Source: Methyloversatilis discipulorum
GTDB taxonomy: Bacteria; Pseudomonadota; Gammaproteobacteria; Burkholderiales; Rhodocyclaceae
Reading direction: 5' to 3'
Length of the DNA stretch: 64,000 nucleotides
Assembly (NCBI RefSeq): GCF_018780585.1
Contig: NZ_JADMJL010000008.1
Coordinates: forward strand, 62,001 to 126,000
Under the pieces are notes generated by a model. It saw only the letters and a list, made by a program, of their open reading frames with translations. It did not search any database and was not told the origin of the DNA. Each line of letters opens with the position of its first letter. The first letter of the stretch is position 1. The translations under genes were made by a program, and so were the position numbers. Shown piece after piece: positions 8,845-63,850 of this stretch.

Positions 8845-9537
8845 TCAGATCAGTCTGGTCTGCATGACCTCGCGCAGCAGCGGCAGCGTCACCGGGCGCT
8901 GGCGGGTCAGCGAATGTTCGTCGAGCAGGTCGAGTATGCCGAGCAGCGAGCGGATGTCGCGTCGGCCGTGGCGCAGCAGGTAATCGAACACCTCCTGTTC
9001 GACCTTCATGCCGCGCGCGGCCGCGTGTGCCTGCAGCAGCTCGATGCGCTCGTCGTCGTGCAGCGGCTGGATGCAGAAGGGCAACATCTGGCCGATGCGG
9101 GTGCGCAGATCCTCGCGCAGCGGCAGCGTGCGCGGCGCGCCGTTGCCGGCGGCGACGACCGTGATGCCGCGTGCCTGGGCCAGATTGATCGCGCGGAACA
9201 GTGCGCCCTGTGCCTCCGGCTCCAGCAGATGGATGTCGTCGAACAGCCAGAGTTTCGCGTGCGTCGCTTCGAGCGCGCCGATCAGCGTGTCCGGCAGCGT
9301 GAAGTTGATCTGGTCGACTTCGAGGTAAAGCCCGCGCGCCTTAGATTCGGCGGCCAGTGCGCGCAAGAGGTGGGTGCGACCGCTGCCGCTGTCGCCCCAC
9401 AGATAGACCGACGCACCGGGCTCGTCGCCGGTCATGGTGCGCAGGTGGGCGAGCAGGTCGCGATTGGCGCCAGCCACGAAATTGCTGAGGCTGGGGGCGG
9501 CGATCGGGCGAATGTCGAGCAGGAGCTGACGCATCAT
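8845..9537 (-). CDS. hda: DnaA regulatory inactivator Hda
   Basis: A 230-residue DnaA-like AAA+ protein without the DNA-binding domain IV of DnaA. It starts MRQLLLDI, the usual Hda opening that contains a clamp-binding motif (QLLLDI). An ATPase core follows: Walker A-like WGDSGSGRTHLL, Walker B LWLFDDIHLL, and sensor II region RRDIRSLLGILDLLD. Hda with the DNA-loaded beta clamp stimulates ATP hydrolysis by DnaA, preventing over-initiation. Its start overlaps the perM stop (ATGA), implying coupled translation. Confidence 0.92.
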   Translation of the reverse strand: MMRQLLLDIRPIAAPSLSNFVAGANRDLLAHLRTMTGDEPGASVYLWGDSGSGRTHLLRALAAESKARGLYLEVDQINFTLPDTLIGALEATHAKLWLFDDIHLLEPEAQGALFRAINLAQARGITVVAAGNGAPRTLPLREDLRTRIGQMLPFCIQPLHDDERIELLQAHAAARGMKVEQEVFDYLLRHGRRDIRSLLGILDLLDEHSLTRQRPVTLPLLREVMQTRLI

Positions 9538-10619
9538 TCGATGATCTTGGGCGCGTCGCCCTGGTAGAAATGACTGGCCAGATAGTGCCGCCTTACTTCA
9601 CGCAGGCCGACCAGCAAGGCAGCCGAAGCGGGCAGCGCGATCAGTACGCCGACGAAACCGAACAGCTGGCCGAAAGCCATCAGCGCGAAAATGACCGCCA
9701 GCGGGTGCAGGCCGATGCGTTCGCCCACCAGCCAGGGCGTGAGCAGGAAGCTTTCCAGCAACTGGCCCAGGCTGTAGACGATGGCCACGCCGATCACCGG
9801 CGGCCAGCCCTGGAACTGAAGGGAGGCCACCAGCAGCGACAGCAGCAAGCCGGTCGAGAAACCGACATAGGGAATGAAGCCGAGCAGGCCGGACAGCAGG
9901 CCCAGCGGCAACGCGTAATCGACGCCGGCTATCCACAGCCCGACGCTGTAGAACAGCGCCAGTGCCGCCATCACCGAAAGTTGTCCGCGCAGGAATTCGG
10001 CCAGCACCGCGTCGATCTCGTCGACCAGCGACAGCGTCCGGTTCAGCCACGGGCGCGGCACCAGCTTGGCCACGCGATGGCGCAGGTCGCGCCAGTCGCG
10101 CATCAGGTAGAACATGACGACCGGCGTCAGCAGCACGTTGGCAACGACGCCGACGATGACCGCGCCCTGGCTGCTGACGTATTCCAGCGCCACCATCAGG
10201 TAGTCCTGCGCGCTGCTCCAGTTCTTCGCGATGAAGCGCTTCAGGCTATCCACGTCGAGCTGCAGCGTGATGCCGAAATGCTGCTGCAGCCAGGGCACCA
10301 GCTTTTCGTGCGCTGCGGTCAGGTAGGCGGGCAGGCGTTCGATCAGCGTGCGCACCTCCTGCTGGATGACCGGTACGAGAATGAGGATGAGGCCAACCAC
10401 CAGACTGATCACCAGCAGGATGACCAGTACGACGGCCAGCGTGCGCGGCACCCGCCTGCGGGACAGGCGCTCGACCAGCGGTTCGAAGATGTAGGCCAGC
10501 ACCAGGCCGAGCATGAAGGGCGACAGCGTCGGCCCGAGCAGCCACAGCAGCCCGACGATGGCCGCGCCGACGCCTGCCCACAGCAGGGTTTGTTTGCGGT
10601 TGATGCCGGGAGGGGTCAT
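9534..10619 (-). CDS. AI-2E/PerM family membrane transporter
   Basis: A 361-residue integral membrane protein of the AI-2E (PerM/TqsA) family with about eight predicted segments, including LLWAGVGAAIVGLLWLLGP near the N-terminus and FALMAFGQLFGFVGVLIALP near the C-terminus. The start MTPPGINRKQ is preferred over an upstream in-frame ATG because the upstream residues are not membrane-like and run into the purM promoter. The substrate is unknown; family members export autoinducer-2 or act as ion antiporters. Its stop overlaps hda, and it is divergent from purM, the standard order in Burkholderiales and Rhodocyclales. Confidence 0.85.
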   Translation of the reverse strand: MTPPGINRKQTLLWAGVGAAIVGLLWLLGPTLSPFMLGLVLAYIFEPLVERLSRRRVPRTLAVVLVILLVISLVVGLILILVPVIQQEVRTLIERLPAYLTAAHEKLVPWLQQHFGITLQLDVDSLKRFIAKNWSSAQDYLMVALEYVSSQGAVIVGVVANVLLTPVVMFYLMRDWRDLRHRVAKLVPRPWLNRTLSLVDEIDAVLAEFLRGQLSVMAALALFYSVGLWIAGVDYALPLGLLSGLLGFIPYVGFSTGLLLSLLVASLQFQGWPPVIGVAIVYSLGQLLESFLLTPWLVGERIGLHPLAVIFALMAFGQLFGFVGVLIALPASAALLVGLREVRRHYLASHFYQGDAPKIIE

Positions 10620-10762
10620 GGCGGGGTGCGGGCCGGGGTAGAATGCGCACCCTTGGGGCGGAATGCGCGAATGCGGTGCAAAAACGCCCCGCAGTTTAGC
10701 AAGATTCCGCTGCACTCCCGTTCATTCATCCTGTTTTCCCGGCGCCCGGCGCCTCATACGTC

Positions 10763-50147: not shown

Positions 50148-51284
50148 TCAGTACATCAGCTGCACGCCGAGCACGAACTTGTCGGTGTCGGTACCGGCGG
50201 CGTTTTCCATGTCGGAGTACACCGCGGTGATGCGTGCGTTGTGGCCGGCCATCACATAGGTCAGGCCGAAGTCCCACTGCTTGGTGTCGCCGCCGGTGTC
50301 GGCGTTGAACTTCTGGTAGCGGGTGTAGGGCTGGAACTGGCCGATGCCGATCTTGGTCGGGATCAGGTAGGCGGCGGTCAGCAGCCAGGCGTCGCCGGCC
50401 TGTGCGCCGCCGCAGTTGTTCACATTGGTGCAGAGGATGTTGCCGGCCGTCACGTCGGTCACGCCGTCGGTGTCGTAGTCGTACCAGGCGCCTTCCAGCG
50501 TCATTACGCCGCCGCCGGCGAGCTTGGTTTCGTACAGCGCGTCGATGTTCCAGGCGCGGTAGTCGCCGCGGGCGAGTGCGGTGCCGACACCGTTCTTCTG
50601 CATCTGGTAGGCCATGCCGACAGTGAAGATTTCCTTGCTGCCGAAATAGCTGTTGGTGCCGTAATAGCCCAGTTCCGGATCGAGGAAGCTGTAGGCGATA
50701 CGGGTGGCGTACAGCGGATCGTCGGAGTCGTTCGACAGGCCGGTGCCGCGGTTCTTGCCCTGGTAGGCACCGACGGAGTACAGCAGCTTGCCGCCGAGCA
50801 CGTTACCCCACAGCAGCGCGCCGTCGTCGCGGCCGGTGAAGGCGTTCGGGTACTGCGACACCATCGGGTATTCCCACACGTTGGCGAAGTAGGGGCCGGC
50901 CATGTTGGCGCGGTCGGTCGGCGGCAGCATGCGGCCGAACCAGAAGTTCACGCCTTCGGTCAGTTCGAACTGGGCGACCGCGTCGAGGATGCGCATCGAT
51001 TCGTCGGACTGGCGCTCGAAGTTGATCATGCCGCCGATGTTCTTGGTGATCTTGCCGCTGGTGATGATACGGACCGAGTCCACCGAGAAGTCGTTCGAGC
51101 GCGAGGTGCCGTTCGGTGCCGCGTCTTCGGCGTTGGTGTAGGAGGTGCGCGCCCACAGGCTGAGCGTCAGATAGCTTTCGCCGGGACCGGCAACGGTGAC
51201 GCCCGCGTTCGCGCTGCCGCAGGCGGCCAGAGCGACGGCGAGTGCGCTGGCTGAGCGCAGACGGTTCTTGGTGATGTTTTTCAT
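50148..51284 (-). CDS. fmdC: Outer-membrane porin of the amide operon (FmdC-like)
   Basis: A 378-residue exported beta-barrel protein. A signal peptide (SALAVALAACGSANA) is followed by barrel strands with NFWFGRMLPPTDRANMAGPYFANVW and NAFTGRDDGALLWGN, ending KFVLGVQLMY with an aromatic C-terminus. It is last in an operon with an amide ABC importer and formamidase, as FmdC is in the methylotroph fmd cluster. It likely lets short-chain amides or urea cross the outer membrane. A paralogue is at 62693-63850. Confidence 0.82.
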   Translation of the reverse strand: MKNITKNRLRSASALAVALAACGSANAGVTVAGPGESYLTLSLWARTSYTNAEDAAPNGTSRSNDFSVDSVRIITSGKITKNIGGMINFERQSDESMRILDAVAQFELTEGVNFWFGRMLPPTDRANMAGPYFANVWEYPMVSQYPNAFTGRDDGALLWGNVLGGKLLYSVGAYQGKNRGTGLSNDSDDPLYATRIAYSFLDPELGYYGTNSYFGSKEIFTVGMAYQMQKNGVGTALARGDYRAWNIDALYETKLAGGGVMTLEGAWYDYDTDGVTDVTAGNILCTNVNNCGGAQAGDAWLLTAAYLIPTKIGIGQFQPYTRYQKFNADTGGDTKQWDFGLTYVMAGHNARITAVYSDMENAAGTDTDKFVLGVQLMY

Positions 51285-51373: not shown

Positions 51374-51703
51374 TCAGTGACTGATCATCCAGGGGCGTTT
51401 CGTCGGGAAGGCCTTGGAGCCGTCGCGCGCGACAGCCGTGGTCTTGCTGGTCTTGCCGCTGCAGCACGAGCAGCCGGGGCCGTGCGTGCGGCTGGCCAGC
51501 TTGGGCTCATGGCGTGCGCGTTCGTTGGTGGCGTGCGCGCTGCGCAGCTGGCCCGGCATGTCGGCGAAGGCCGGTGCGGAGATCAGCTGGCGTGCGGCCG
51601 GCTGGCCGCAGGCCGGGCAGAGGCAGGGCGCGTCCCGCTGCGCGATGCTGCGCATGGCGGAAAAGCTGCCATGCGCCTCGCAGTGAAAGTCGTAGGTCGG
51701 CAT
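51374..51703 (-). CDS. fmdB: FmdB-family zinc-ribbon protein
   Basis: A 109-residue protein with an N-terminal FmdB zinc ribbon (MPTYDFHCEAHGSFSAMRSI, then CLCPACGQPA). The tail has CSCC near its C-terminus. FmdB was named as a putative regulator of formamidase genes; how it acts is unclear. Between formamidase (10 bp) and porin (89 bp). Confidence 0.88.
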   Translation of the reverse strand: MPTYDFHCEAHGSFSAMRSIAQRDAPCLCPACGQPAARQLISAPAFADMPGQLRSAHATNERARHEPKLASRTHGPGCSCCSGKTSKTTAVARDGSKAFPTKRPWMISH

Positions 51704-51713
51704 GGCAGCGTCC

Positions 51714-52943
51714 TCAGACGTCTTCCGAGATCGGCATCTGCACGCTGCCGTCGAGGAATTTCTGCGGACCGGCTTCGGTCGGCATGATGTCGAAGTCGAA
51801 GATGTCGGTCGGCAGCCACAGCGTCGCGCAGGCGTTCGGAATGTCGACCACGCCGCTGATGTGGCCCTGCACCGGTGCGGTGCCGAGGATCGAATAGGCC
51901 TGGGCGCCCGAGTAGCCGAATTTCTTCAGGTACTCGATCGCGTTCAGGCAGGCCTGACGGTAGGCCACATGCACGTCGAGGTAATGCTGCTTGCCCTGCT
52001 CGTCGACCGAAATGCCTTCGAAGATGAGGTAGTCGTCGTACTTGGGCGTGATCGGGCTGGGCTTGAAGATCGGGTTCTTCACCGCGTACTTCTTCATGCC
52101 GTCCTTGATGATGTTCACCCGCAGGTGCAGCCAGCCGGCCATTTCGATGGCGCCGCAGAAGGTGATTTCGCCGTCGCCCTGCGAGAAGTGCAGGTCGCCC
52201 ATCGACAGGCCGCCGCCCTTCACATAGACCGGGAAGTAGATGCGCGAGCCGCGCGACAGATCCTTGATGTCGCAGTTGCCGCCGTGTTCGCGCGGCGGCA
52301 CGGTACGCGCGCCTTCCATCGCCGCCTTGTCGCGCGCCTCGCCCTTCAGGCGACCCATGTGCGCGGTCGGTGCGCACGGCGGGCAGCCCAGCGGCGGCAC
52401 GCGCTCGGGGTCGGTGTTGATGAAGTCGATCTCGCGCTTGTTCCACTCTTCGAGCAGCTTGGGATCGGGCAGGCAGCCGATCAGACCCGGGTGGATCAGG
52501 CCGGCGTACTTGACGCCCGGCACGTGGCGCGATTCGGTGAACATGCCCTTGATGTCCCAGATCGACTTCTGCGCCAGCGGGAAGTGATCGGTCAGGAAGC
52601 CGCCGCCGTTCTTCTTCGAGAAGAAGCCGTTGAAGCCCCACAGGCTGTCTTCCTTGGCGCCGATGTCGAGGATGTCGACCACCAGCAGGTCGCCCGGCTC
52701 GCAGCCTTCGACGCCGATCGGGCCGGACAGGAAGTGCACCGTGGTCAGGTCGACGTCGCGCACGTCGTCGGCGCTGTCGTTGTTCTGGATGTAGCCGCCG
52801 GTCCAGTCGTAGGTTTCGATCTTGAAGTCGTCGCCCGGCTTCACCCACGCGACGATGGGGATGTCCGGGTGCCAGCGGTTGTGAACCATGTCGTTCTCAT
52901 ACGGCGACTGCTTCAGGTCTACCTTGATCAGGGTCTCTGCCAT
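51714..52943 (-). CDS. fmdA: Formamidase (acetamidase/formamidase family)
   Basis: A 409-residue FmdA, usual length. It hydrolyses formamide, and more slowly other short amides, to the acid and ammonia in the cytosol. Typical segments are MAETLIKVDLKQSPYENDMV at the start, HFLSGPIGVEGCEPGDLLVVDI, HPGLIGCLPD and GDLHFSQGDGEITFCGAIE, with the metal and catalytic residues in the last. It supplies nitrogen (and formate) from substrate brought in by the co-transcribed importer. Confidence 0.94.
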   Translation of the reverse strand: MAETLIKVDLKQSPYENDMVHNRWHPDIPIVAWVKPGDDFKIETYDWTGGYIQNNDSADDVRDVDLTTVHFLSGPIGVEGCEPGDLLVVDILDIGAKEDSLWGFNGFFSKKNGGGFLTDHFPLAQKSIWDIKGMFTESRHVPGVKYAGLIHPGLIGCLPDPKLLEEWNKREIDFINTDPERVPPLGCPPCAPTAHMGRLKGEARDKAAMEGARTVPPREHGGNCDIKDLSRGSRIYFPVYVKGGGLSMGDLHFSQGDGEITFCGAIEMAGWLHLRVNIIKDGMKKYAVKNPIFKPSPITPKYDDYLIFEGISVDEQGKQHYLDVHVAYRQACLNAIEYLKKFGYSGAQAYSILGTAPVQGHISGVVDIPNACATLWLPTDIFDFDIMPTEAGPQKFLDGSVQMPISEDV

Positions 52944-52998: not shown

Positions 52999-53688
52999 TC
53001 AGACGGACAGGAACTGCTTGATGTGCGCGGTATCGGTTTCCGCGCGGGTGCTCTCATGGACCAGGCGGCCGCCTTCGATGACGAACAGGCGGTCGGCCAC
53101 GTCCATCGCGAAGCTGAGCACCTGCTCGGACACGACGATGGTGATCTGGCGCAACTTGCGGATTTCGTTCAGCGCGCGCGCGATGTCCTTGATGATCGAC
53201 GGCTGTATGCCTTCGGTCGGCTCGTCGAGCAGCAGCACCTTGGGATCGGTCACCAGCGCGCGGGCAATGGCCAGCTGTTGCTGCTGGCCACCCGACAGGT
53301 TGCCGCCCTTGCGGCGGCGCATCTCCCACAGCACCGGGAAGAGGGCGTAGATCTCGTCCGGCACCTTCTTGACCTTGGCATTCTCCAGGCCGGTGTGGAT
53401 GTTCTCCTCGACGGTGAGCGTCGGGAAAATCATCCGGCCCTGCGGCACGTAGGCGATGCCCTTGGCGACGCGCTTGTAGCTTTCGTCCTTCGACACTTCG
53501 TTGCCGGCGACTTCGATCTGACCGCTCTTCAGCGGCAGGATGCCGATCAGCGACTTGAACAGCGTGGTCTTGCCCATGCCGTTGCGGCCCATGATGGCGA
53601 CCGTTTCGTTGGCATTGGCTTCGAACGAGATGCCGTGCAGTGCCTCGCTCTGCCCGTAGGCGACATGTACGTCCTTGACGTTGAGCAT
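52999..53688 (-). CDS. urtE: Branched-chain/urea-type ABC transporter ATPase UrtE
   Basis: A 229-residue ABC ATPase of the LivF/UrtE class. Walker A GRNGMGKTT, signature LSGGQQQQLAIARAL, Walker B VLLLDEPTEGIQPSI. The GIQPSI stretch is typical of UrtE. Together with UrtD it powers the permease pair UrtBC. Confidence 0.92.
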   Translation of the reverse strand: MLNVKDVHVAYGQSEALHGISFEANANETVAIMGRNGMGKTTLFKSLIGILPLKSGQIEVAGNEVSKDESYKRVAKGIAYVPQGRMIFPTLTVEENIHTGLENAKVKKVPDEIYALFPVLWEMRRRKGGNLSGGQQQQLAIARALVTDPKVLLLDEPTEGIQPSIIKDIARALNEIRKLRQITIVVSEQVLSFAMDVADRLFVIEGGRLVHESTRAETDTAHIKQFLSV

Positions 53689-53734: not shown

Positions 53735-54478
53735 TCAGTGGCCCAGATAAACGTCGATGACCTTGGGATCGTTCTGCACCTTGTCCATCGATCCTTCGGC
53801 GAGGATCTTTCCCTGGTGCATGACGGTGACCTTGTGGGCGATGCGCTTGACGAAATCCATGTCGTGCTCGATCACGATCACCGAGCGGCCCTTGCAGATG
53901 CGCTGCAGCAGTTCGGCGGTCAGTTCGCGTTCGCGCACGCTCATGCCGGCGATCGGTTCGTCGAGCATCAGCAGCTCCGGCTCCTGCATCAGCAACATGC
54001 CGATTTCCAGCCACTGCTTCTGGCCGTGGCTGAGCAGGCCGGCTTCGGTGTCGAGCGCGTCGCCGAGGCCGATCTCGTCGGCCACCGACTGCACGCGCGC
54101 CTTCACCTCGTCGGTGCAGCGGAAGCCGAGCGCGCCGAGCACGCTGCGGCCGCGCGGGAAGGACACTTCCAGGTTCTTGAACACCGAAAGGTTTTCGTAG
54201 ATCGACGGCGTCTGGAACTTGCGGCCGATGCCGGCGCGCACGATCTTGTGTTCCTGCAGCTTGGTCATCTCCACGTTCTTAAACTTGATGCTGCCGCCGC
54301 TGGCCTTGGTCTTGCCGCAGATCAGGTCGAGCAGCGTGGTCTTGCCGGCGCCGTTCGGGCCGATGATCACGCGCAGCTCGCCGCGATCGACGTAGAGGGT
54401 CAGCGCGTCGATCGCCTTGAAGCCGTCGAAGGACACGGTCAGGTCCTCGATCGCCAGTACGAAATCGGTATTGCTCAT
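53735..54478 (-). CDS. urtD: Urea/amide ABC transporter ATPase UrtD
   Basis: A 247-residue ABC ATPase of the LivG/UrtD class. Walker [19 protein letters not shown], signature LSHGQKQWLEIGMLL, Walker B LLMLDEPIAGMS, switch His in VIEHDMDFVK. It lies 46 bp from urtE and 28 bp from urtC in the operon. Confidence 0.92.
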   Translation of the reverse strand: MSNTDFVLAIEDLTVSFDGFKAIDALTLYVDRGELRVIIGPNGAGKTTLLDLICGKTKASGGSIKFKNVEMTKLQEHKIVRAGIGRKFQTPSIYENLSVFKNLEVSFPRGRSVLGALGFRCTDEVKARVQSVADEIGLGDALDTEAGLLSHGQKQWLEIGMLLMQEPELLMLDEPIAGMSVRERELTAELLQRICKGRSVIVIEHDMDFVKRIAHKVTVMHQGKILAEGSMDKVQNDPKVIDVYLGH

Positions 54479-54506: not shown

Positions 54507-55700
54507 TCAGGCCGACTGGCCCTGGACGCCGCCGGGCAGTGCGGCGGGCGGTGCGGACTTGTGGGTGGGGGCCGAGGGCGGTGCCGGCGGTTCGCCCGCG
54601 GACGCAGCCGGTTTGGCGACGGACTTGCGACGCGAGAACCAGGGCTTCACGTGGCTTTCGTACAGACCGGCCAGGCCGTTGGGGAAGGCGAGCACGACGC
54701 CGATGAACAGCGCGGCCATCAGGAACAGCCAGAGGTCGGGCGCGCTTTCGGAGAAGTAGGTCTTGCCGGCATTGACCAGCAGCGCGCCATACACCGCGCC
54801 GACCAGCGACATGCGGCCGCCCACCGCGGCGAAGATGACCATTTCGATCGACGGCACGATGCCGACGAAGGACGGCGACATGAAGCCGACCTGCAGCGTG
54901 AACATCGCGCCGCCGATGGCCGAGATGCCGGCCGCCAGCACGAACACGAACACCTTGAACATCGCCACGTCGTAGCCGGAGAAGCGCACCCGGTCTTCCT
55001 TGTCGCGCATCGCCAGCAGCAGCGTGCCGAGCTTGGACATCTGTATCCAGCGGCAGAGCAGGATGACGCCGATCAGCAGCGCGGCATTGACGAAGTACAG
55101 GACGTACTTCGATGAGTCGTCGCGGATGTCCCAGCCGAGCAGGGTCTTCAGGTCGGTGATGCCATTGACGCCGCCGGTGTAGCCCTGCTGGCCGATGATG
55201 AGCACGGTCAGGATGAGCGCCACCGCCTGCGTGATGATGGCGAAATACACGCCACCGACCCGGCGCTTGAACATGGCGAAGCTGATGATGAAGGCCAGCA
55301 CCATCGGCACCAGCACCACCGCGATCAGCGCCAGCGGCAGGTGGTTGAACGGCTCCCACCAGAACGGCAGTTCGGTGATCTGGTTCCAGTCCATGAAGTC
55401 CGGAATGCCCGGCGTGCTCTGGATCTTGGTCGATTCCGGATCCGAGGCCTCGAGCTTCAGGAACATCGCCATCATGTAGCCGCCGAGGCCGAAGAAGCAG
55501 CCCTGACCCAGACTCAGGATGCCGCCGTAGCCCCACAGCATGACGAGGCCGACGGCGACGAAGGCGTAGGTGAGGTATTTGCCGACGAGGTTGAGGCGGA
55601 AGATGTCCATCGTCAGCGGGAACACGACCATGATGACGAGCGCGAGGACGAGCACGCTCCCCATGCCGGTTCGTGCAACCCAGTTCTTGAATGCGTCCAT
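54507..55700 (-). CDS. urtC: Urea/amide ABC transporter permease UrtC
   Basis: A 397-residue LivM-like permease with about ten membrane segments, for example GMGSVLVLALVIMVVFPLTM and YLTYAFVAVGLVMLWGYGGILSLGQG. The EAA-like loop is near GYDVAMFKVFVFVLAAGISAIGGA. The ~45-residue C-terminal tail is Ala/Pro-rich. It pairs with UrtB. Confidence 0.9.
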   Translation of the reverse strand: MDAFKNWVARTGMGSVLVLALVIMVVFPLTMDIFRLNLVGKYLTYAFVAVGLVMLWGYGGILSLGQGCFFGLGGYMMAMFLKLEASDPESTKIQSTPGIPDFMDWNQITELPFWWEPFNHLPLALIAVVLVPMVLAFIISFAMFKRRVGGVYFAIITQAVALILTVLIIGQQGYTGGVNGITDLKTLLGWDIRDDSSKYVLYFVNAALLIGVILLCRWIQMSKLGTLLLAMRDKEDRVRFSGYDVAMFKVFVFVLAAGISAIGGAMFTLQVGFMSPSFVGIVPSIEMVIFAAVGGRMSLVGAVYGALLVNAGKTYFSESAPDLWLFLMAALFIGVVLAFPNGLAGLYESHVKPWFSRRKSVAKPAASAGEPPAPPSAPTHKSAPPAALPGGVQGQSA

Positions 55701-55740: not shown

Positions 55741-56655
55741 TCAGCGGCGGATCTTCGAGGCGAAGAGGCCCTGCGGACGGATCATCAGGATGGTCACGAT
55801 GAGCAGCAGCGTGAGTACCTTGGCCATCGAGCCGGTCAGGAAAAACTCGGCGATCGACTGCGTCTGGGCGATGCCGAAGGCCGACGCCACGGTGCCAAGC
55901 AGCGAAGCGGCGCCGCCGAAGGTCACTACGAGGAAGGCATCGACGATGTAGAGCGAGCCCGAAGTCGGACCGGTCGAACCGATGGTGGTGAAGGCCGCGC
56001 CCGCCACGCCGGCGATGCCGCAGCCGATGGCGAAGGTGAGGCGGTCGGTGCGCTTGGTGTTGATGCCGGTGGCGTTGGCCATCGCGCGGTTGGCGACGGT
56101 GGCGCGCACACGCAGACCCCAGCGCGACTTGTACAGCGCGAGCAGCACGCCGCCGGTCACCACGGCAGTGAGGCCGAGCACGAACAAGCCGTTGATCGGG
56201 ATGTCCAGCCCTTCGGACGGCGCCCACGAACCCATCAGCCACTCGGGCAGGGTCGGGCTCACTTCCTTCGGACCGAAGGTCGAGCGGAACACCTGCTGCA
56301 TGCCGAGCGACAGGCCCCAGGTGGCGAGCAGCGTATCCAGCGGACGTTTGTACAGATGTCGTATCAGCGCCCACTCGGTCAGCCAGCCGAAGGCGAAGGC
56401 GATGAAGAAGGCGGCGACGATGGCGATCGGGAAATAGGCTTGCACCAGCCCGGGCGCATAGGTTTCGGTCAGGCTGGAGAACATGAAGATGGTGTAGGCG
56501 CCGATGGTCATGAATTCGCCATGCGCCATGTTGATCACGCCCATCTGGCCGAAGATGATGGCGAGGCCGAGGCCCATCAGCAGCAGGACCGAGAACAGGC
56601 TCAGCCCGGCGAAGCCCTGCATCAGGGCGATGTTGTAGATTTCGTCGAATGACAT
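55741..56655 (-). CDS. urtB: Urea/amide ABC transporter permease UrtB
   Basis: A 304-residue LivH-like permease starting MSFDEIYNIALMQGFAGLSL. Typical parts are GLGLAIIFGQMGVINMAHGEF and the RVRATVANRAMANATGINT cytoplasmic loop. Upstream in-frame residues are not membrane-like, so the shorter start is used. Confidence 0.91.
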   Translation of the reverse strand: MSFDEIYNIALMQGFAGLSLFSVLLLMGLGLAIIFGQMGVINMAHGEFMTIGAYTIFMFSSLTETYAPGLVQAYFPIAIVAAFFIAFAFGWLTEWALIRHLYKRPLDTLLATWGLSLGMQQVFRSTFGPKEVSPTLPEWLMGSWAPSEGLDIPINGLFVLGLTAVVTGGVLLALYKSRWGLRVRATVANRAMANATGINTKRTDRLTFAIGCGIAGVAGAAFTTIGSTGPTSGSLYIVDAFLVVTFGGAASLLGTVASAFGIAQTQSIAEFFLTGSMAKVLTLLLIVTILMIRPQGLFASKIRR

Positions 56656-56748
56656 GACGGACCTCCGGACGGTTGGCCGAGCACTGCCCGGCCGTGCAGG
56701 GAAAGGAGGCGCGCCGCCCGGTCTGCGCCGGGGCGGCACGCCGGGGTA

Positions 56749-58020
56749 TTACTGGTAGCCCTTGGGGAAGGGGTTGGGTTCGATCAGGTCGGCCGATTCG
56801 GCGACCACCTTGAAAGTGCCGTCCGGCTGGCCCTGGGCGATGCGCGCCTTGGACCACAGGTGATGGTTCTCATGGACCTTCACGTAGCCTTCCGGCGCGC
56901 TCTTCAGTTCGATGCCGGGCGAGGCGGCGACCACCTTGTCGACATCGAAGCTGCCCGCCTTCTCGACGGCGGCCTTCCACAGCCAGGGGCCGAGATAGCC
57001 GGCCTGGGTCACGTCGCCGATCACCGACTTCGGACCGTAGGCCTTCTTGAAGGCCTCGACGAAAGCCTTGTTGTTGGCGTTGTCGAGCGACTGGAAGTAC
57101 TTCATCGAGGAGTAGAAGCCGGCGAAGTTTTCACCGCCCACGCCCAGCATTTCGTCCTCGGTCACCGACAGCGTCAGCAGGAACTGCTTGACGCCGGTGA
57201 TGCCGGCCGCCTTCAGCTGCTTGTAGAAGGCCACATTGGAGCCACCCACCACGGCTGCGAAGATGCAGTCCGGCTTGGCGACCTTGATCTTGTTGATCAG
57301 CGAGTTGAAGTTGGTGTGGCCGAGCGGGTAGTACTCCTCGCCCACCACCTTGCCGAGCTTGCCGACCGACTCGATGTGCTTGCGCGCGATCTTCATCGAG
57401 GTGCGCGGCCAGATGTAGTCGGAGCCGACCAGGAAGTAGGTCTTGGCCTTCTTTTCCTTCGACGCCCAGTCGAGACCCCAGATGATCTGCTGGGTGGCTT
57501 CCTGACCGGTGTAGATGACGTTCTTCGACTGCTCCAGGCCTTCGTAGAAGGTCGGGTAGTAGAGCAGGCCGTTCTCCTTTTCGAACACCGGCAGCACCGC
57601 CTTGCGCGAGGCCGAGGTCCAGCAGCCGAACACGCAGGCCACCTTGTCGTTCACCAGCAGCTTCTTCGACTTCTCGGCGAAGGTCGGCCAGTCGGAGGCG
57701 CCGTCTTCCTTGATCACCTTGATCTTGCGACCGAGGATGCCGCCCATCGCGTTGATCTGGTCGATCGCCAGCTGTTCGGCCTGGATCGAGCCGGTTTCCG
57801 AGATCGCCATCGTGCCGGTGGCGGAGTGCAGCTGACCCACGATGACTTCGGTGTCGGTGACCGCGAGCTTGGTCGTATTGACCTTGGCTGTCGGGAACTG
57901 CGCATTGCCGAAGCTGACGCCGGGCACCATCAGCGCCGGTGCAGCCGCCATGCCGAGCAGAACCTTGCGACGCTGTTCGTCGGTGAGCGGTGCCGGAATC
58001 GTGTCTTTCTTGTCAGCCAT
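56749..58020 (-). CDS. urtA: ABC transporter substrate-binding protein, UrtA/FmdD type
   Basis: A 423-residue periplasmic binding protein, first gene of the operon. It begins with a probable Tat signal (DEQRRKVLLGMAAAPALMVPG). The binding domain opens VIVGQLHSATGTMAISETGS; UrtA proteins usually read HSLSGTMAISE, so this may be the amide-binding (FmdD) variant. VACVFGCWTSASRKAVLPVFE and LLYYPTFYEGLEQSKNVIYTG are family-typical. Ligand urea or short amide. Confidence 0.9.
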   Translation of the reverse strand: MADKKDTIPAPLTDEQRRKVLLGMAAAPALMVPGVSFGNAQFPTAKVNTTKLAVTDTEVIVGQLHSATGTMAISETGSIQAEQLAIDQINAMGGILGRKIKVIKEDGASDWPTFAEKSKKLLVNDKVACVFGCWTSASRKAVLPVFEKENGLLYYPTFYEGLEQSKNVIYTGQEATQQIIWGLDWASKEKKAKTYFLVGSDYIWPRTSMKIARKHIESVGKLGKVVGEEYYPLGHTNFNSLINKIKVAKPDCIFAAVVGGSNVAFYKQLKAAGITGVKQFLLTLSVTEDEMLGVGGENFAGFYSSMKYFQSLDNANNKAFVEAFKKAYGPKSVIGDVTQAGYLGPWLWKAAVEKAGSFDVDKVVAASPGIELKSAPEGYVKVHENHHLWSKARIAQGQPDGTFKVVAESADLIEPNPFPKGYQ

Positions 58021-58378
58021 ATCGTTTCTCCTGAGCGGAAGGGGTTGGGGAGCTTCAGGCGATCCGGTTGCGGCCGTTGAATCGTTTTGTGCACTGCACC
58101 GCAATCGCTCGCTGCGGTGCGAAAAGTAGTGTTCGGGGGTGCGTAGCCGGAATACGTCGATTGACGTATGTGCGTACTCGGCGCAACACCCGCGATCGGG
58201 GTGGGCCGGTGCTAAGGTGGAATCCTGCGCTGTCGCACTGCACCAGGATGTTGCCGAGGGCACCGTCGGGGTGCGCGGCGTGGAGGGAAGCTGCACTTGG
58301 GCTCCGGGTGGCGCGCGGTTTCGCTGCCCGGAGCATTTCTTGCATGGTGTGGCCTCGATCGCGTCAGCGCCTGCCCCG
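58021..58378. promoter_or_regulatory. Divergent promoter region between amide operon and sensor kinase
   Basis: No gene in these 358 bp. A perfect dyad ATACGTC-GATT-GACGTAT lies at 58152-58169. On the minus strand a TACTTT -10 candidate (58123-58128) is placed so that the dyad centre falls ~42-45 bp upstream of the expected start. An activator bound there would overlap the -35, as in class II activation. The adjacent LuxR-type regulator is the best candidate to bind it. Confidence 0.55.
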
Positions 58379-61300
58379 ATGTCCGAAGCCACCCACCAGA
58401 TATTCAAGATCCGCCGCGACTACAATACCTGGGTCGCCAATGAGACGCTCGAGGACTACGCGCTGCGCTACACGCCGCGCAGCTTCCGCAAGTGGTCGGA
58501 GTGGCGGGTCGCCAACACCGCCTTCGGCGCGGTGTCCTTCCTGGCGCTGGAGGCGATCGGCGGCGCCATCGCGCTGAACTACGGCTTCACCAATGCGCTG
58601 TATGCCATCCTGCTGGTCGGGCTGATCACCTTCCTGACCGGTCTGCCGATCAGCTACTGCGCCGCCAAGTACGGCGTGGACATGGACCTGCTCACGCGCG
58701 GCGCCGGCTTCGGCTACCTCGGCTCGACCATCACCTCGCTGGTCTATGCGAGCTTCACCTTCATCTTCTTCGCCATCGAAGCGGCCATCATGGCGCTCGC
58801 CTTCGAGATGTACTTCGGCCTGCCGCTGGCGTGGAGCTATCTGCTGTGTTCGGTGGTGGTGATTCCGCTGGTGATCCACGGTGTCACGCTGATCAGCCGC
58901 ATACAGCTGTGGACGCAGCCGCTGTGGATCGTGCTGCTGGTGCTGCCCTACCTCGCGGTGTGGTGGCAGGCGCCGCACCTGTATTCGGAATTCACCGGCC
59001 TCAGTGGCCGCAGTTCGGGCAGCAGCGAATTCGACTGGATCATGTTCGGTGCGGCGTCGACGGTGGCGATCTCGCTGGTGGTGCAGATCGGCGAACAGGT
59101 CGACTACCTGCGCTTCCTGCCGGAGAAGACGCGCGAGAACCGGGTGCGCTGGTGGGCCTCGGTGCTGATCGCCGGCCCCGGCTGGGTGGTGCCGGGCATG
59201 GTGAAGATGCTGGGCGGCGCCTTTCTCGCCTTCCTTGCGCTGCAGGCCATGGTGCCGGTGGACCGCGCGGTCGAACCCACGCAGATGTATCTCGCCGGCT
59301 TTGCCTACGTGTTCGATTCGCCGGCGGTCGTGCTGGCGGTGACCGCGCTGTTCGTCATCGTGTCGCAGCTGAAGATCAACGTGACCAATGCCTACGCCGG
59401 CTCGCTCGCCTGGTCGAATTTCTTCGCCCGCCTCACGCACAGCCACCCTGGCCGCGTCGTGTGGCTGGTGTTCAATGTGGTGATCGCGCTGCTGCTGATG
59501 CTGCTCGGCGTGTTCGAGGCGCTGGAGCATGTGCTCGGCCTCTACGCCAATCTCGCCATCGCCTGGGTCGGCGCGCTGGTGGCCGACCTGGTCGTGAACA
59601 AGCCGCTCGGTCTGTCGCCGTCGCACATCGAGTTCAAGCGCGCCCATCTGTACGAGATCAACCCGGTCGGCCTCGGCTCGATGCTGATCGCCACCGTCGT
59701 ATCCGTGCTTGCCTACACCGGCTGGATGGGCGACATGGCGCAGGCCTTTTCGCCCTTCATCTCGCTGGCCACCGCCTTCGTCACCGCGCCGCTGATCGCG
59801 CTCGCCACGCGCGGCCGCTACTACCTCGCGCGGCGCAGTGCCACGCAGTGGCGGCCGGGCCAGACGGTGACCTGCCACGTCTGCGAAAACAGCTTCGAAT
59901 CGGAGGACATGGCGTACTGCCCGGCCTACGGTCAGCCCATCTGTTCGCTGTGCTGCACGCTCGAATCGCGCTGCCACGACCGCTGCAAGACCGACGCCAG
60001 CGCCGCTGACCAGCTGCACGCCTTCCTGAACGCCATCCTGCCGATGCAACTGGCGCGGCGCGTGAACTTCCGCGTCGGCCATTTCCTGGTCGTGTTCCTG
60101 TCGCTCACCGTGCTGCTGGCGGTCATCTTCGGCGTCGTGTTCTACCAGGAGGCCATCGTCAGCGGCCTCTACCCGGCGGCGCGCGACAGCCTGCAGCTCA
60201 CGCTGTCGAAAACCTTCGCGCTGCTGGTGCTGCTGTGTGCCGTGTGCGCCTGGTGGATCGTGCTCGGCTCGGAAAGCCGGCGGCTGGCGCAGGACGAATC
60301 GAACCGGCAGAACCAGCTGCTGATGCGCGAAATCGACGCGCACCGCAAGACCGACCTCGCGCTGCAGAAGGCCAAGGATGCCGCCGAGTCGGCCAACCTT
60401 GCCAAGACGCGCTACGTGACCGGCATCAGCCACGAACTGCGCACGCCGCTGAACAGCATTCTCGGCTACGCGCAGATCCTGCTGCGCGAAACGGGCGGCA
60501 GCGGCAGCACCGGCAAGGGCGGCGGCGACGACACGCAGAAGCGCGCGCTGGGCACCATCCTGCGCAGCGGCGAACATCTGCTGGGCCTGATCGACGGCCT
60601 GCTCGACCTGGCGCGCATCGAGGCCGGCAAGCTCAGGCTGGATCCGGCGCCGATGCCGCTGCGCGAACTGCTGGATGATCTGGCCAAGATGTTCGAGCCG
60701 CAGGCGGCGCGCAAGGGCCTGCAGTTCCGCATCGAAACGACCGGCCGGCTGCCCGACTACGTGCGCGTCGACGCCAAGCGGCTGCGCCAGGTGCTGATCA
60801 ATCTGCTGGCGAATGCGGTCAAGTTCACCGAGCAGGGCGAGGTGGTGCTGCGCATCGATTACCGGATGGAGGTGGCGCGCTTCGAGATCGCCGACACCGG
60901 CCCCGGCATCGCGGCGGACGACCATGCCCGCATCTTCATGCCTTTCGAGCGCAGCGCCAGCGGCCGCGTCATCGCCGAGCCGGGCACCGGCCTGGGCCTG
61001 AGCATCACCCGCATGCTCACCTCGCTGATGGGCGGCGAACTGACGCTGGAGAGCGAGCTCGGTCGTGGCTCGACCTTCCGCCTGCGGCTCTACCTGCCTG
61101 AGTACCTGTCGGTGCCGACGCAGACGCGCTCGATGCGCACCGTCATCGGCTACGAAGGTCCGCGCATGCGCGTGCTGCTGGTCGATGACGACGCCACCCA
61201 GCGCCACATGCTGACCGGCATGCTGGCGCCGCTCGGTTTCGACGTCGACGAGGCGGCCAGCGGCCGCGAGGCGCTGGACTGCGTCGCCCGCGTGCGCCCG

Positions 61301-61795
61301 GACGTGGTGCTGCTGGACATCAATATGGACGGCATGGACGGTTGGGAAACCGCGCGCCGCCTGCGCGAGTTCGACGGCGCGCCGATACCGGTGCTGATGG
61401 TGTCGGCCAATGTGTTCGAGAACCGCAGCGAACTGCTGCGTACCGCCGGCTGCGCCGGCTTCGTGCCCAAACCGGTCATGGAGTCCGAACTGCTGGACCA
61501 GTTGCGCGAGGCGCTGGACCTGACCTGGCATGTCGACGAACCGGCCGACGCCGCACCGCCGAAGGCCGAGCCGGCCGCCGACGCGCCGCTTGCCGCGCTC
61601 GACGACGAAGAGCGCGCCGCGCTGCTGCGCCTGTCGCGGCTGGGCCACGTCAATGGCATCGCCACGCTGCTGGACGCGATTTCCGAACGGTCCGAGGCCG
61701 CACGCGAAGACTGCCGTCGCCTGCGCGCGCTGGTCGACGGCTTCGACCTCATACGCTTCACACAACTATTACAACGCGACGCCCATGCTCTCTGA
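58379..61795 (+). CDS. NCS1 transporter / hybrid histidine kinase fusion (transceptor)
   Basis: A 1138-residue protein. Residues 1-~480 are a 12-helix NCS1/CodB-like permease (cytosine-purine-allantoin family; EWRVANTAFGAVSFLALEAIGG, QIGEQVDYLRFLP, NVTNAYAGSLAWSNFFARL). A Cys-rich linker has Cys499, 502, 514, 522, 525, 526, 532 and 536, resembling a zinc finger. Two more helices (~565-590, ~605-626) precede a HisKA domain with His685 in GISHELRTPLNS and an ATPase domain (NAVKFTEQGEVVL, DTGPGIAADD). A receiver domain has phospho-Asp980, and the last ~90 residues are helical. Start MSEATHQIFKIRRDYN is the family-like opening. Divergent from the amide operon; inferred to sense an amide or related nitrogen compound through the permease. 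Confidence 0.88.
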   Translation: MSEATHQIFKIRRDYNTWVANETLEDYALRYTPRSFRKWSEWRVANTAFGAVSFLALEAIGGAIALNYGFTNALYAILLVGLITFLTGLPISYCAAKYGVDMDLLTRGAGFGYLGSTITSLVYASFTFIFFAIEAAIMALAFEMYFGLPLAWSYLLCSVVVIPLVIHGVTLISRIQLWTQPLWIVLLVLPYLAVWWQAPHLYSEFTGLSGRSSGSSEFDWIMFGAASTVAISLVVQIGEQVDYLRFLPEKTRENRVRWWASVLIAGPGWVVPGMVKMLGGAFLAFLALQAMVPVDRAVEPTQMYLAGFAYVFDSPAVVLAVTALFVIVSQLKINVTNAYAGSLAWSNFFARLTHSHPGRVVWLVFNVVIALLLMLLGVFEALEHVLGLYANLAIAWVGALVADLVVNKPLGLSPSHIEFKRAHLYEINPVGLGSMLIATVVSVLAYTGWMGDMAQAFSPFISLATAFVTAPLIALATRGRYYLARRSATQWRPGQTVTCHVCENSFESEDMAYCPAYGQPICSLCCTLESRCHDRCKTDASAADQLHAFLNAILPMQLARRVNFRVGHFLVVFLSLTVLLAVIFGVVFYQEAIVSGLYPAARDSLQLTLSKTFALLVLLCAVCAWWIVLGSESRRLAQDESNRQNQLLMREIDAHRKTDLALQKAKDAAESANLAKTRYVTGISHELRTPLNSILGYAQILLRETGGSGSTGKGGGDDTQKRALGTILRSGEHLLGLIDGLLDLARIEAGKLRLDPAPMPLRELLDDLAKMFEPQAARKGLQFRIETTGRLPDYVRVDAKRLRQVLINLLANAVKFTEQGEVVLRIDYRMEVARFEIADTGPGIAADDHARIFMPFERSASGRVIAEPGTGLGLSITRMLTSLMGGELTLESELGRGSTFRLRLYLPEYLSVPTQTRSMRTVIGYEGPRMRVLLVDDDATQRHMLTGMLAPLGFDVDEAASGREALDCVARVRPDVVLLDINMDGMDGWETARRLREFDGAPIPVLMVSANVFENRSELLRTAGCAGFVPKPVMESELLDQLREALDLTWHVDEPADAAPPKAEPAADAPLAALDDEERAALLRLSRLGHVNGIATLLDAISERSEAAREDCRRLRALVDGFDLIRFTQLLQRDAHAL

Positions 61796-62684
61796 ATTCC
61801 ATCAACCGGTCGTGCTCGTCGTCGACGACGCACCCGATTCGCTCGGCTTCCTGTGCGACGCGCTGTCGCAGGCCGGCTACACCGTGCTGATCGCGCACGA
61901 CGGCGCGTCGGCGCTGGCCCGTCTCGAATGGGTGGTGCCCGACGCCATCCTGCTCGACGCGGTGATGCCCGGCCTGTCCGGCTTCGAAACCTGCCGCCGC
62001 ATCCGCGAAGAGCCGGGGCTGACCCACGTGCCCATCATCTTCATGACCGGGCTGTCGGGCACGGCCGAAGTGGTCGAGGGCTTTACCGCCGGCGGCACCG
62101 ACTACGTGGTCAAGCCCCTGCGTGTCGAAGAGGTGCTGGCGCGGCTCACCGCCCACGTGCGCAACGCGCGCGCGGTGCGCATCGCACGGCAGGCGGTGGA
62201 CGTGGCCGGACTCGGCGTGCTGGTGGTCGATGCACTCGGCCGCGTGGCCTGGCGTTCGCCGCGTGCCGGCGAGTGCCTGGGTCAGTTCGGTATCGACCCG
62301 GCGGCCGCGACCGCCGACTGGCTGGGCGACCCGGCCGGCCTGACGGCGGACCCTGCCGCCGAGGCGCGCCTGCTGCGCGAGCAGGGCGACCAGGCGCTGT
62401 ACGCGCGCAGCCTGGGTGCGGTGGGGCTGGGCGAACACATGCTGCTGCTCGACGTGAGGAAGCGCGGTGAATCAAGCACCCGCATCGCCGGCGCCCAGCT
62501 GACGCCGCGCGAGGCCGAGGTGCTGTCCTGGTTGGCCAAGGGCAAGACCAACCGCGATATCGGCGACATCCTCGGCATGAGCCCGCGCACGGTTAACAAG
62601 CACCTCGAGCACATCTACGAAAAGCTCGGCGTCGAAACCCGCGCCGCCGCCGCCGCCCTGGCGATGCGGGCGTCCAGCGACTGA
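61785..62684 (+). CDS. LuxR-type response regulator partnered with the transporter-kinase
   Basis: A 299-residue regulator. Receiver domain (VVLVVDDAPDSLGFLCDALS) with phospho-Asp58 in AILLDAVMPGLSG and Lys in YVVKPLRVEE. A ~90-residue middle region (VDVAGLGVLVVDALGRVAWRS) looks PAS-like. LuxR helix-turn-helix at the C-terminus (LTPREAEVLSWLAKGKTNRD...MSPRTVNKHLEHIYEKLGV). Its start lies inside the kinase 3' end (11-bp overlap), so the two form an operon and a phosphorelay. Likely activator of the amide operon. Confidence 0.92.
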   Translation: MLSEFHQPVVLVVDDAPDSLGFLCDALSQAGYTVLIAHDGASALARLEWVVPDAILLDAVMPGLSGFETCRRIREEPGLTHVPIIFMTGLSGTAEVVEGFTAGGTDYVVKPLRVEEVLARLTAHVRNARAVRIARQAVDVAGLGVLVVDALGRVAWRSPRAGECLGQFGIDPAAATADWLGDPAGLTADPAAEARLLREQGDQALYARSLGAVGLGEHMLLLDVRKRGESSTRIAGAQLTPREAEVLSWLAKGKTNRDIGDILGMSPRTVNKHLEHIYEKLGVETRAAAAALAMRASSD

Positions 62685-62692
62685 ATCGGCAT

Positions 62693-63850
62693 CTAGTACA
62701 GCAGCTGCAGGCCGAGCACGAAGCGGTCGAGCGACGCCGCGCCCGCGCTCTTCGCGCTCGAATACACCGCGGTGAGGCGCGCTTTGTGACCCGATATGAC
62801 GTAGTTCGTACCGACGTCCCACTGTTCGGCGCGCGCGCCGGCGTCCGGATCCAGGCGCTGGAAGCGCACGTAAGGCTGGAAGCGACCGGGGCCGAACGCG
62901 TGCGGGATCAGGTAGCCGACGGTGAGTAGCGCGGCATCCGCCTGCAGCGCGCCACCGCAGTTGCTCACGCGCGAACACAGCGGGTCGGCGGGCGCAACGT
63001 CGGCCACGCCGTCGGTGTCGTAGTCGTACCAGGCGGCCTCGACGGTGAGCACACCGCCGGAGCGCAGGCGGGTTTCGTACAGCGCATCCAGGTTCCACGC
63101 GCGATAGTCACCGCGGGCGCCGGCCACACCGACGCCGTCCTTCTGGCTCATCAGCGCGGCGCCCAGCGTGAACACCTCCTTGTCGCCGTAATAGGTGCTG
63201 GTGCCGTAGTAGCCGGGTTCCGGGTCGAGGAAGCTCCAGGCGAAGCGGGCCGCGAACAGCGGCTCACTGGAGGCATTCGACAGACCGCTGCCGCGGTTCT
63301 TGCCCTCGAACACGCCGACGCTGTAGAGCAGCCGGTCGGCGTACAGATTGCCCCACAGCAGCACGCCGTCGTCGCGGCCGGTGAAGGCGTTCGGGTAGAG
63401 CGACACGAAGGGATAGCCCCACACATTGGCGAACTGGTTGCCCGCCATGTTCGAGCGGTCGGTCGGCGGCACCAGCCGGCCGACCCACAGGTTCAGCCCC
63501 TCTGCCAGTTCGAACTGCAGGATGGCGTCGAGCAGCTGCATGTCCTTGGCCGGCGGGCGTTCGAAGGTGAGCGTGGCGCCGAACCTGCGGGTGAATTTCG
63601 CCGCCGACAGCAGGCGGACCGAATCCATCGTGAAGCCGCTGTCGTATGCACTGCCGCCGGCCGGGCGCGCCTCTTCGGCATTGACGTAGGAGGCGCGCAG
63701 CCACAGGCCGAGCGTCAGCGAACTGTCGCCTGGGCCCTGCAAGGTCATCTGGGCATCGGCGGCACCTGAGCAGAGCAGGGCTGCGCTGGCGAGCAGCGCG
63801 TGGCGAAAGGGCGGCGTCCATCGCAGACGCGTGAAGCGGCGGAAGGTCAT
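62693..63850 (-). CDS. Second FmdC-like outer-membrane porin
   Basis: A 385-residue exported barrel, signal peptide SAALLCSGAADA. It matches the porin at 50148-51284 along its length: LNLWVGRLVPPTDRSNMAG, NAFTGRDDGVLLWGNLYAD, GYYGTSTYYGDKEVFTLG and the terminal RFVLGLQLLY all have counterparts there. Its stop is 8 bp past the convergent response-regulator stop. It may serve amide entry under other conditions. Confidence 0.85.
   Translation of the reverse strand: MTFRRFTRLRWTPPFRHALLASAALLCSGAADAQMTLQGPGDSSLTLGLWLRASYVNAEEARPAGGSAYDSGFTMDSVRLLSAAKFTRRFGATLTFERPPAKDMQLLDAILQFELAEGLNLWVGRLVPPTDRSNMAGNQFANVWGYPFVSLYPNAFTGRDDGVLLWGNLYADRLLYSVGVFEGKNRGSGLSNASSEPLFAARFAWSFLDPEPGYYGTSTYYGDKEVFTLGAALMSQKDGVGVAGARGDYRAWNLDALYETRLRSGGVLTVEAAWYDYDTDGVADVAPADPLCSRVSNCGGALQADAALLTVGYLIPHAFGPGRFQPYVRFQRLDPDAGARAEQWDVGTNYVISGHKARLTAVYSSAKSAGAASLDRFVLGLQLLY

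Follow-up and report, generated by a model that had tools for sequence, protein, structure and literature searches.

What does a sensor kinase detect when its membrane domain resembles a nutrient transporter, and which genes does it control? The question is raised by a gene in a 64,000-nucleotide stretch of Methyloversatilis discipulorum DNA (contig NZ_JADMJL010000008.1, positions 62,001 to 126,000 of the forward strand), referred to here as the window. The product of this gene, which we call the fusion, joins an NCS1-like membrane domain to a cysteine-rich (Cys-rich) part, a histidine kinase and a receiver. The next gene encodes a LuxR-type response regulator, and genes for amide or urea uptake and hydrolysis lie on the other side. 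The kinase/LuxR pair probably regulates this neighbouring amide or urea operon, an assignment that is well supported by genomic context.

Pfam recognizes HisKA (residues 676-750), HATPase_c (798-906) and Response_reg (932-1042) in the fusion, and Response_reg and GerE in the regulator. All of the features of a hybrid histidine kinase with a LuxR-type partner are present and intact: the H box with His685 in SHELRTPL, an N box at 809, G boxes at 839 and 869, the receiver aspartate Asp980, and an adjacent receiver-GerE regulator whose gene overlaps that of the kinase by 11 bp. The operon on the opposite strand reads urtABCDE-fmdA-fmdB-porin, and every product from UrtA to FmdB scores above its NCBIfam cut-off. 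A preliminary description of the window had placed the membrane, Cys-rich, kinase and receiver parts in one chain, with an overlapping LuxR regulator and a divergent operon for amide/urea uptake and hydrolysis. Each of these points holds, and the chain now has exact coordinates, Pfam domains and a 1138-residue frame. We collected relatives by an exact peptide-pattern scan of GTDB contigs and kept the best 80 of 349. In 77 of these 80 the open frame extends for 1109 residues or more before its stop codon, and the remaining three end at a contig edge; therefore, the fusion is not an assembly artefact.

The assignment rests on linkage. We surveyed 398 Pseudomonadota genomes, scoring at most three first-look candidates per genome, and found the fusion in 52 of them (54 matched; the fragments in G236 and G288 were dropped). 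Up to 20 kb around 56 fused loci was then searched for window and marker proteins. At 37 loci fmdA lies within ~10 kb, accompanied by an amide-type urtA in 35 and by AmiS in two. Another 13 loci have urease, four have a Sinorhizobium-type urtA only, one, on a cut contig, has an amide-type urtA only, and one, on a 4.8-kb contig, has none. The preliminary description had proposed a survey of the pairing with urt/fmd operons and named a fusion mostly next to unrelated operons as the outcome that would speak against it. What we observed is the contrary: fmdA, urease or urtA adjoins 55 of the 56 loci, versus fmdA, urtA or ureC in 0 of 15 stretches around other hybrid kinases of the window genome. 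Among the best 80 of 349 relatives, several of which are on short contigs, 64 have fmdA, a further 12 have urtA, one has AmiE/AmiF only and three have none.

FmdA scores above its cut-off in 40 of the 398 genomes, and the fusion is present in 39 of them (the exception is G114), versus 13 of the 358 without FmdA; counted by genus, it is found in 28 of 29 FmdA genera. The 13 fusion genomes lacking FmdA are urease or urea-type urt cases, together with one cut contig. In this survey the fusion is present twice in five genomes. Four of these (G246, G225, G379 and G158) have one copy by fmdA and the other by urease; in G091 both are by fmdA. The partner genes vary. An AmiS/UreI channel is paired with fmdA instead at L167, L172 and L212, Paracoccus among them, fmdA-fmdB is divergent and without urt in Methylovirgula (L214), Sinorhizobium has urt without fmdA, and a Klebsiella plasmid has urt and formamidase. 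In 123 of 133 loci, the kinase is directly followed by a relative of the LuxR-type regulator.

In PLSDB, 530 plasmid records match the domain, 342 of them from Klebsiella, and 307 of the 530 are predicted to be conjugative. These records were matched on the domain, and at least one from Klebsiella (CP125156) has the unfused permease in place of the fusion. On plasmid OX030750.1 (L211:11989-16252), the kinase and regulator adjoin a urt-formamidase cluster that is probably the UTS of the Klebsiella CG307 papers; the portion of that literature available to us mentions no kinase (PMC13060141). Two records of ~329 and 379 kb named 'Acinetobacter phage MD-2021a' (CAKLQH020000001.1 and CAKLQF020000001.1) match the domain at 54% identity in two places each, annotated arcB, and may be phage-plasmids or misnamed plasmids. 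A second survey gave 20 matches. Wide stretches were taken for five places in four genomes, selected for an unusual length or a missing kinase, and such a selection gives no fair count. Two matches each were obtained in three genomes of this survey: G574 has two fusions near no marker gene, G681 two fusions, seen with 1.5-kb flanks, and G694 a fusion and a permease.

What, then, is the membrane domain? With Pfam run to a limit of E 10, CRIPT (E 5.1) is the one match to residues 1-560. Transp_cyt_pur (PF02133), the Pfam family of NCS1 proteins, matches none of 50 family members, the window protein included, and nothing in the window genome at E 0.001; a PDB sequence search gave no match for the domain or its profile. 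An AlphaFold2 model of residues 1-654, built from an alignment of 50 rows (mean predicted local distance difference test score, pLDDT, 78), has as its best PDB fold matches Mhp1 (E 2.2e-9) and CodB (template-modelling score by target 0.77). When aligned by hhalign to 34 PF02133 members, the domain scores 99.1-99.3%, collinear over ~400 columns and nearly its whole length. The same query scores 0.4-4.5% against 20 SSF proteins and 1.7-2.9% against 26 AA_permease_2 proteins. Given the fold match to Mhp1 and CodB and an hhalign score absent from two other LeuT-fold families, the membrane domain is a divergent NCS1 homologue that the curated Pfam model misses. General LeuT-fold resemblance as the sole ground for this result is rejected, since the SSF and AA_permease_2 controls fail to reproduce the score. 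Membership in SLC5/STAC is likewise rejected, on the lack of any Pfam match beyond CRIPT and on the SSF scores. The 'complete NCS1-type permease' of the preliminary description therefore stands by fold and by hhalign but not by Pfam. In the alignment with Mhp1, E134 corresponds to Gln121 of transmembrane helix 3 (TM3). K332-I333-N334 falls on Trp311-Thr313, the region of the TM8 Ser/Thr of the Na2 site, with a one-residue gap that makes the placement uncertain; the same letters occur in 12 unfused permeases.

These unfused permeases, of ~530-575 residues, are the closest relatives of the domain that lack a kinase. We counted 12, leaving out the distant L210; L240 and L242 are unannotated and were judged by tblastn alone. 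Three are by urease (Klebsiella pneumoniae L209, Acinetobacter ursingii L235 and G708 L244), four by fmdA (Moraxella L236, Tsukamurella L239, Methylovirgula L214 and G694 L243) and one by an aliphatic amidase (Arthrobacter U41, L238). Because eight of the 12 adjoin urease, fmdA or amidase and most share the Cys-rich tail, the sensor domain is akin to a group of probable urea/amide permeases. Permease and sensor lie side by side in Methylovirgula, G694 and Acinetobacter baumannii. When seven unfused relatives were tested against PF02133, the K. pneumoniae protein P0003 (~45% identity) passed with 38.1 bits versus a cut-off of 23.5, and the other six, L210 included, gave no match. The NCS1-type permeases at L209:9944-11551, L235:8959-10566 and L244 (~9107-10672) lie in or beside urease operons, with the named ones labelled cytosine or allantoin permease; these three are candidate urea permeases. 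In Mycobacterium smegmatis, the 'cytosine permease' msmeg_3402 is reported to rise with the formamidase msmeg_3403 under nitrogen limitation (PMC4222082, PMC4617892). The L210 protein (L210:7959-9386, Rhodococcus) is near hydantoinase/oxoprolinase genes and a PucR regulator and is perhaps a ureide or lactam permease.

To what extent do sensors and permeases differ? After short, cut or duplicate loci were dropped, we compared 155 fused rows (153 distinct) with the 12 unfused. There are 81 positions conserved in both groups, the pocket included. E134, Q236, E239, Q240, D242, R245, K332, N334 and N337 occur in all 155 fused rows and are conserved in the permeases too. TM1 separates the groups without exception: every one of the 155 sensor rows has F54 and E58 and none has Asp at 57, whereas all 12 permeases have Y54 and D57. 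F54 is aligned with Mhp1 Gln42 and CodB Phe33, which are described as lying next to the Na2 site (PMC4195764, PMC9379551). We infer that ion coupling may have been altered when the domain turned sensor, or in the reverse change. On the tree, with L210 left out, a single branch with 97-98% support in the Shimodaira-Hasegawa-like approximate likelihood ratio test (SH-aLRT) splits sensors from permeases, and the label changes once; the outgroup branches are far too long for a reliable root, so the label may have changed in either direction.

The Cys-rich part follows the membrane domain in both groups. Its pattern, C-x2-C ... C ... C-S-L-C-C ... C-x3-C, occurs in 137 of 138 long fusions, and the tail is common to the unfused permeases, in shortened form in the K. 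pneumoniae and Moraxellaceae proteins. Since unfused permeases end in the same tail, this part is, judged from sequence, a domain of the permease family and not a linker made for the kinase. The 'Cys-rich linker' described earlier is thus right as to its cysteines but not as to its being a linker. The Actinomycetota permeases L238, L239 and L241 retain the C-terminal domain with most of the Cys residues lost. No known fold could be assigned, as the best Foldseek match of the predicted fold is a RING finger at E 1.0 and there is no sequence match of weight. The sensor module is also joined to other outputs: classical kinases without a receiver in L167, L212 and L247 (by Pfam) and L172 (by eye), two PAS domains with kinase and receiver in L246, and PAS-GGDEF-EAL in L245:6852-10481. 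Beside the last are a LysR-type gene and, by eye, an apparent RuBisCO gene, with none of the searched urea/amide genes nearby. The His-box pattern is present in 134 of the 138 long fusions, the exceptions being L145 (variant box), L245 (GGDEF-EAL), L246 (kinase further on) and L174 (cut).

Among the sensors, the tree shows no fewer than five changes of genomic context between amide and urea. In the amide class, 108 of 118 rows have Glu at position 299 and 116 of 118 have Gly at position 398. In the urea class, Asp occupies position 299 in 17 of 19 rows, and Met, Cys, Ser or another residue occupies position 398 in 17 of 19. Both positions shift in several urea clades, with L085 as an exception, but only four independent pairs are available on the starred branches, so that no sign test can reach 0.05. 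Residues 299 and 398 are candidate specificity residues.

A candidate operator lies between urtA and the kinase gene. The motif TACGT-N6-ACGTA is found in 87 of 115 urtA/kinase intergenic regions, compared to a mean of 0.05 in shuffles; the 115 include the window copy L221, and among the 114 distinct regions the count is 86. Other spacings from 0 to 13 between the TACGT and ACGTA arms do not occur in the 115 regions. In the Methyloversatilis intergenic alignment, a single base on the spacer side is the only variable one in the arms. The palindrome stays with urtA in L171 and L213, in which the kinase is 6.4 kb and 1.8 kb away, respectively. With up to one mismatch, it is present within 600 bp before the kinase in 95 of 117 amide-class loci. 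The exact palindrome has a single copy in the window genome, where versions with up to three mismatches are no commoner than those of a reversed control (47 versus 56), and we claim no wider regulon. Sigma-54 promoters at urtA were considered and rejected: of the 115 regions, none has the strict pattern toward urt and four have it toward the kinase; for the loose pattern the counts are 1 and 0, respectively. A sigma-70 scan of window positions 57900-62800 gave no match. The LuxR-type regulator presumably binds the TACGT-N6-ACGTA palindrome. With regard to context, the preliminary description had recognized the amide operon and had overlooked the urease class, the unfused permeases, this operator-like palindrome and the permease origin of the Cys-rich part.

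Table 1. Features of the locus, in window coordinates.
Feature	Position	Strand	Remarks
Fusion sensor kinase	58379..61795	+	1138 residues; ATG 58379, stop 61795; one open frame
Parts of the fusion kinase, by residue			NCS1-like membrane domain ~1-486; Cys-rich domain ~496-537; two helices and signalling helix ~564-660; HisKA; HATPase; receiver; short C-terminus
NCS1-like membrane domain (sensor module)	58379..59836	+	TM1 signature SFLALE at residues 53-58
Cys-rich, zinc-ribbon-like domain, residues ~496-537	59864..59989	+	Cys pattern; comparison with unfused permeases
Response regulator, receiver and LuxR (GerE) DNA-binding domain	61785..62684	+	Pfam; ATG 61785, stop 62684
Palindrome ATACGTCGATTGACGTAT, candidate operator	58152..58169	.	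~130 bp before urtA ATG, ~210 bp before kinase ATG
urtA-type substrate-binding protein	56749..58020	-	TIGR03407, 521 bits, above cut-off; divergent from kinase; putative start codon
urtB permease	55741..56739	-	TIGR03409; start codon uncertain
urtC permease	54507..55700	-	TIGR03408
urtD ATPase	53735..54478	-	TIGR03411
urtE ATPase	52999..53688	-	TIGR03410
fmdA formamidase	51714..52943	-	NF045496, 772.7 bits versus cut-off 500
FmdB-family zinc-ribbon protein	51374..51703	-	TIGR02605
Porin, putatively FmdC-like by position	50148..51284	-	Sole NCBIfam match, porin ExtI, under its cut-off

Two further features flank the kinase and regulator genes. Past the regulator, at 62693-63850 (-), is a second porin gene; its product shares 55-59% identity with the porin encoded in the operon at other Methyloversatilis loci. 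Directly 5' of the kinase start (58301-58334, +) is a hairpin whose stem has 13 pairs, with a weak T-rich stretch after it.

How might these parts work together? The gene pair would be a two-component system for urea or short-chain amides, and its sensory end would be a membrane domain related to little-described NCS1 permeases that lie mostly beside urease, formamidase or amidase genes. In the window, the likely ligand would be formamide or a close short-chain amide that the divergent Urt-type transporter imports and FmdA cleaves. Its binding in the NCS1 pocket (F130, E134, and TM6 and TM8 residues) would tilt the domain differently; through the Cys-rich tail and two extra helices the new tilt would reach the coiled coil, and autophosphorylation of His685 would be set accordingly. 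Phosphate would pass to the LuxR-type regulator via Asp980 or directly, and the regulator, bound to the palindrome in the urtA/kinase intergenic region, would activate urtABCDE-fmdAB. In this scheme, the domain architecture, the homology, the synteny and co-occurrence, the palindrome and the residues that are conserved or differ by class are observed; we infer the ligand, the direction of the response, the phosphotransfer route, the operator binding and the loss or retention of transport.

Several observations weigh against this explanation. Three of the 12 unfused relatives (L237, L240 and L241) have no telling neighbour, that of A. baumannii (L242) lies only beside a sensor, and the most distant relative, L210 (31-33% identity), adjoins hydantoinase/oxoprolinase genes. 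The window protein fails Pfam's curated NCS1 test. The palindrome is mostly absent before urea-class kinases (3 of 18, within 600 bp and with at most one mismatch). Of four fused loci from the second survey examined with 20-kb flanks, three (L245, L246 and L247) are near no marker gene; two of these three are the two copies of one genome, G574. The rows compared are related to one another, so the counts overstate independence, and Fisher tests ignore phylogeny. Finally, the SLC5 domain of CbrA is reported to be dispensable for signalling (PMC7096432, PMC9100948), and by that precedent the sensing need not be done by a transporter-like domain.

Does the membrane domain still transport? The explanation takes two forms, and we lean slightly toward a receptor only, a former permease that binds amide and signals but has lost transport, with the TM1 change marking the loss of coupling. 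This form, which we rate a little short of an even chance, draws on the absolute switch at 54/57/58 beside the Na2 site and on the precedent of Ks-Amt5, although an acidic TM1 residue (E58) and the other conserved core positions are kept and the TM1 change may have run either way. The second form is the model of the preliminary description, a true transceptor that transports amide and signals, with flux or occupancy setting kinase activity. In its favour, 81 positions are shared by sensors and permeases, pocket included, and the SLC5 domain of CbrA is reported to transport histidine (PMC7096432); on the other hand, the TM1 difference is absolute and the operon already has an ATP-binding cassette (ABC) uptake system, and we consider this form possible but on balance doubtful. 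Because the TM1 aspartate of 12 of 12 permeases is absent from 155 of 155 sensors, a non-transporting receptor is at least as likely as a transceptor.

Outside these two forms, the NCS1 domain could be a mere membrane anchor or passenger transporter, with the kinase sensing nitrogen status or another cytoplasmic cue, much as the dispensable SLC5 domain of CbrA would allow. We regard this as improbable: Pfam finds no PAS or GAF domain in the window protein, conservation is higher in the membrane domain than in the kinase (e.g., 64% versus 54% in locus L077), the membrane domain is reused with other outputs, including classical kinases and PAS-GGDEF-EAL, and its residues 299 and 398 track amide/urea context. 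It is very unlikely indeed that the system regulates something else and adjoins these operons by chance or shared transfer. Hitch-hiking on plasmids is conceivable for so common a plasmid domain and L245-L247 lack marker genes, but the linkage holds across orders with reshuffled partners and orientation, two-copy genomes are divided by pathway, and the palindrome follows urtA.

A joint reading of the receptor-type explanation with the distribution data seems to us about evenly poised between right and wrong. In it, the NCS1 domain, Cys-rich tail and two helices would make up a portable module, absent from Pfam, for sensing urea and short-chain amides. One transition shared with the urea/amide permeases, marked by the TM1 swap AYLAD/SFLALE, would have turned a permease into a receptor (or back). 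Residues 299 and 398 would have re-tuned the module between amide and urea several times, its outputs would include hybrid and classical kinases as well as a GGDEF-EAL protein, and it would travel on conjugative plasmids. The paired sensors and permeases with the same pocket are a natural set in which the transporter-to-receptor question becomes testable at a few TM1 residues. Through them, a family of probable urea/amide permeases comes to light that is uncharacterised and currently annotated as cytosine/allantoin permease or hypothetical protein, with three of 12 beside urease genes. In the portions of the searched literature available to us, we recognized no description of the NCS1-kinase fusion or its LuxR-type regulator.

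CbrA is an SLC5-STAC-PAS kinase and has as its partner CbrB, an NtrC-type regulator. Like the fusion, CbrA/CbrB combines a transporter domain and a kinase in one chain for nutrient control (PMC13022988, PMC7096432). Its SLC5 domain is reported to carry histidine, and signalling can do without it. The parallel with CbrA-type sensors, drawn in the preliminary description with the proviso that a different transporter family is used, is borne out by NCS1 kinship in fold and hhalign and by the exclusion of SLC5. In Ks-Amt5, too, an uptake-transporter domain has been recruited as a sensor of a nitrogen compound (PMC5764959); it differs in having an Amt fold and no linking domain, and comes from an anammox bacterium. 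GrtK was considered as a possible match and set aside, being a six-helix PilS-like kinase (PMC12918730). Mhp1 and CodB share the fold and a collinear profile match over ~400 columns, whereas the fusion has K332-I333-N334 around the TM8 Ser/Thr of the Na2 site (with the one-residue uncertainty), Glu134 in place of Mhp1 Gln121, and a fused kinase. The fmdCABDEF cluster of Methylophilus methylotrophus is likewise an amide/urea gene cluster, induced by formamide and urea, for which the available part of its description includes no sensor kinase (PMC10781810); the NCS1 fusion is a concrete candidate for the regulator of such formamide- or urea-induced uptake and hydrolysis operons.

The system would work most like CrbS/R and RpuS/R, which also combine a transporter-fold membrane domain, a kinase and a C-terminal receiver with a LuxR-type partner (PMC9100948, PMC5715377); CrbR is reported to act through an inverted repeat at target promoters (PMC5715377). 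Those systems serve acetate and pyruvate use, not amides. NCS1 would replace their SLC5 domain, and the Cys-rich tail with two helices would stand where they have STAC and PAS. To the transporter-derived sensor kinases typified by CbrA, CrbS and Ks-Amt5, the NCS1-kinase fusion adds an input module unknown to Pfam, and with it a second LeuT-fold transporter family recruited as a sensor.

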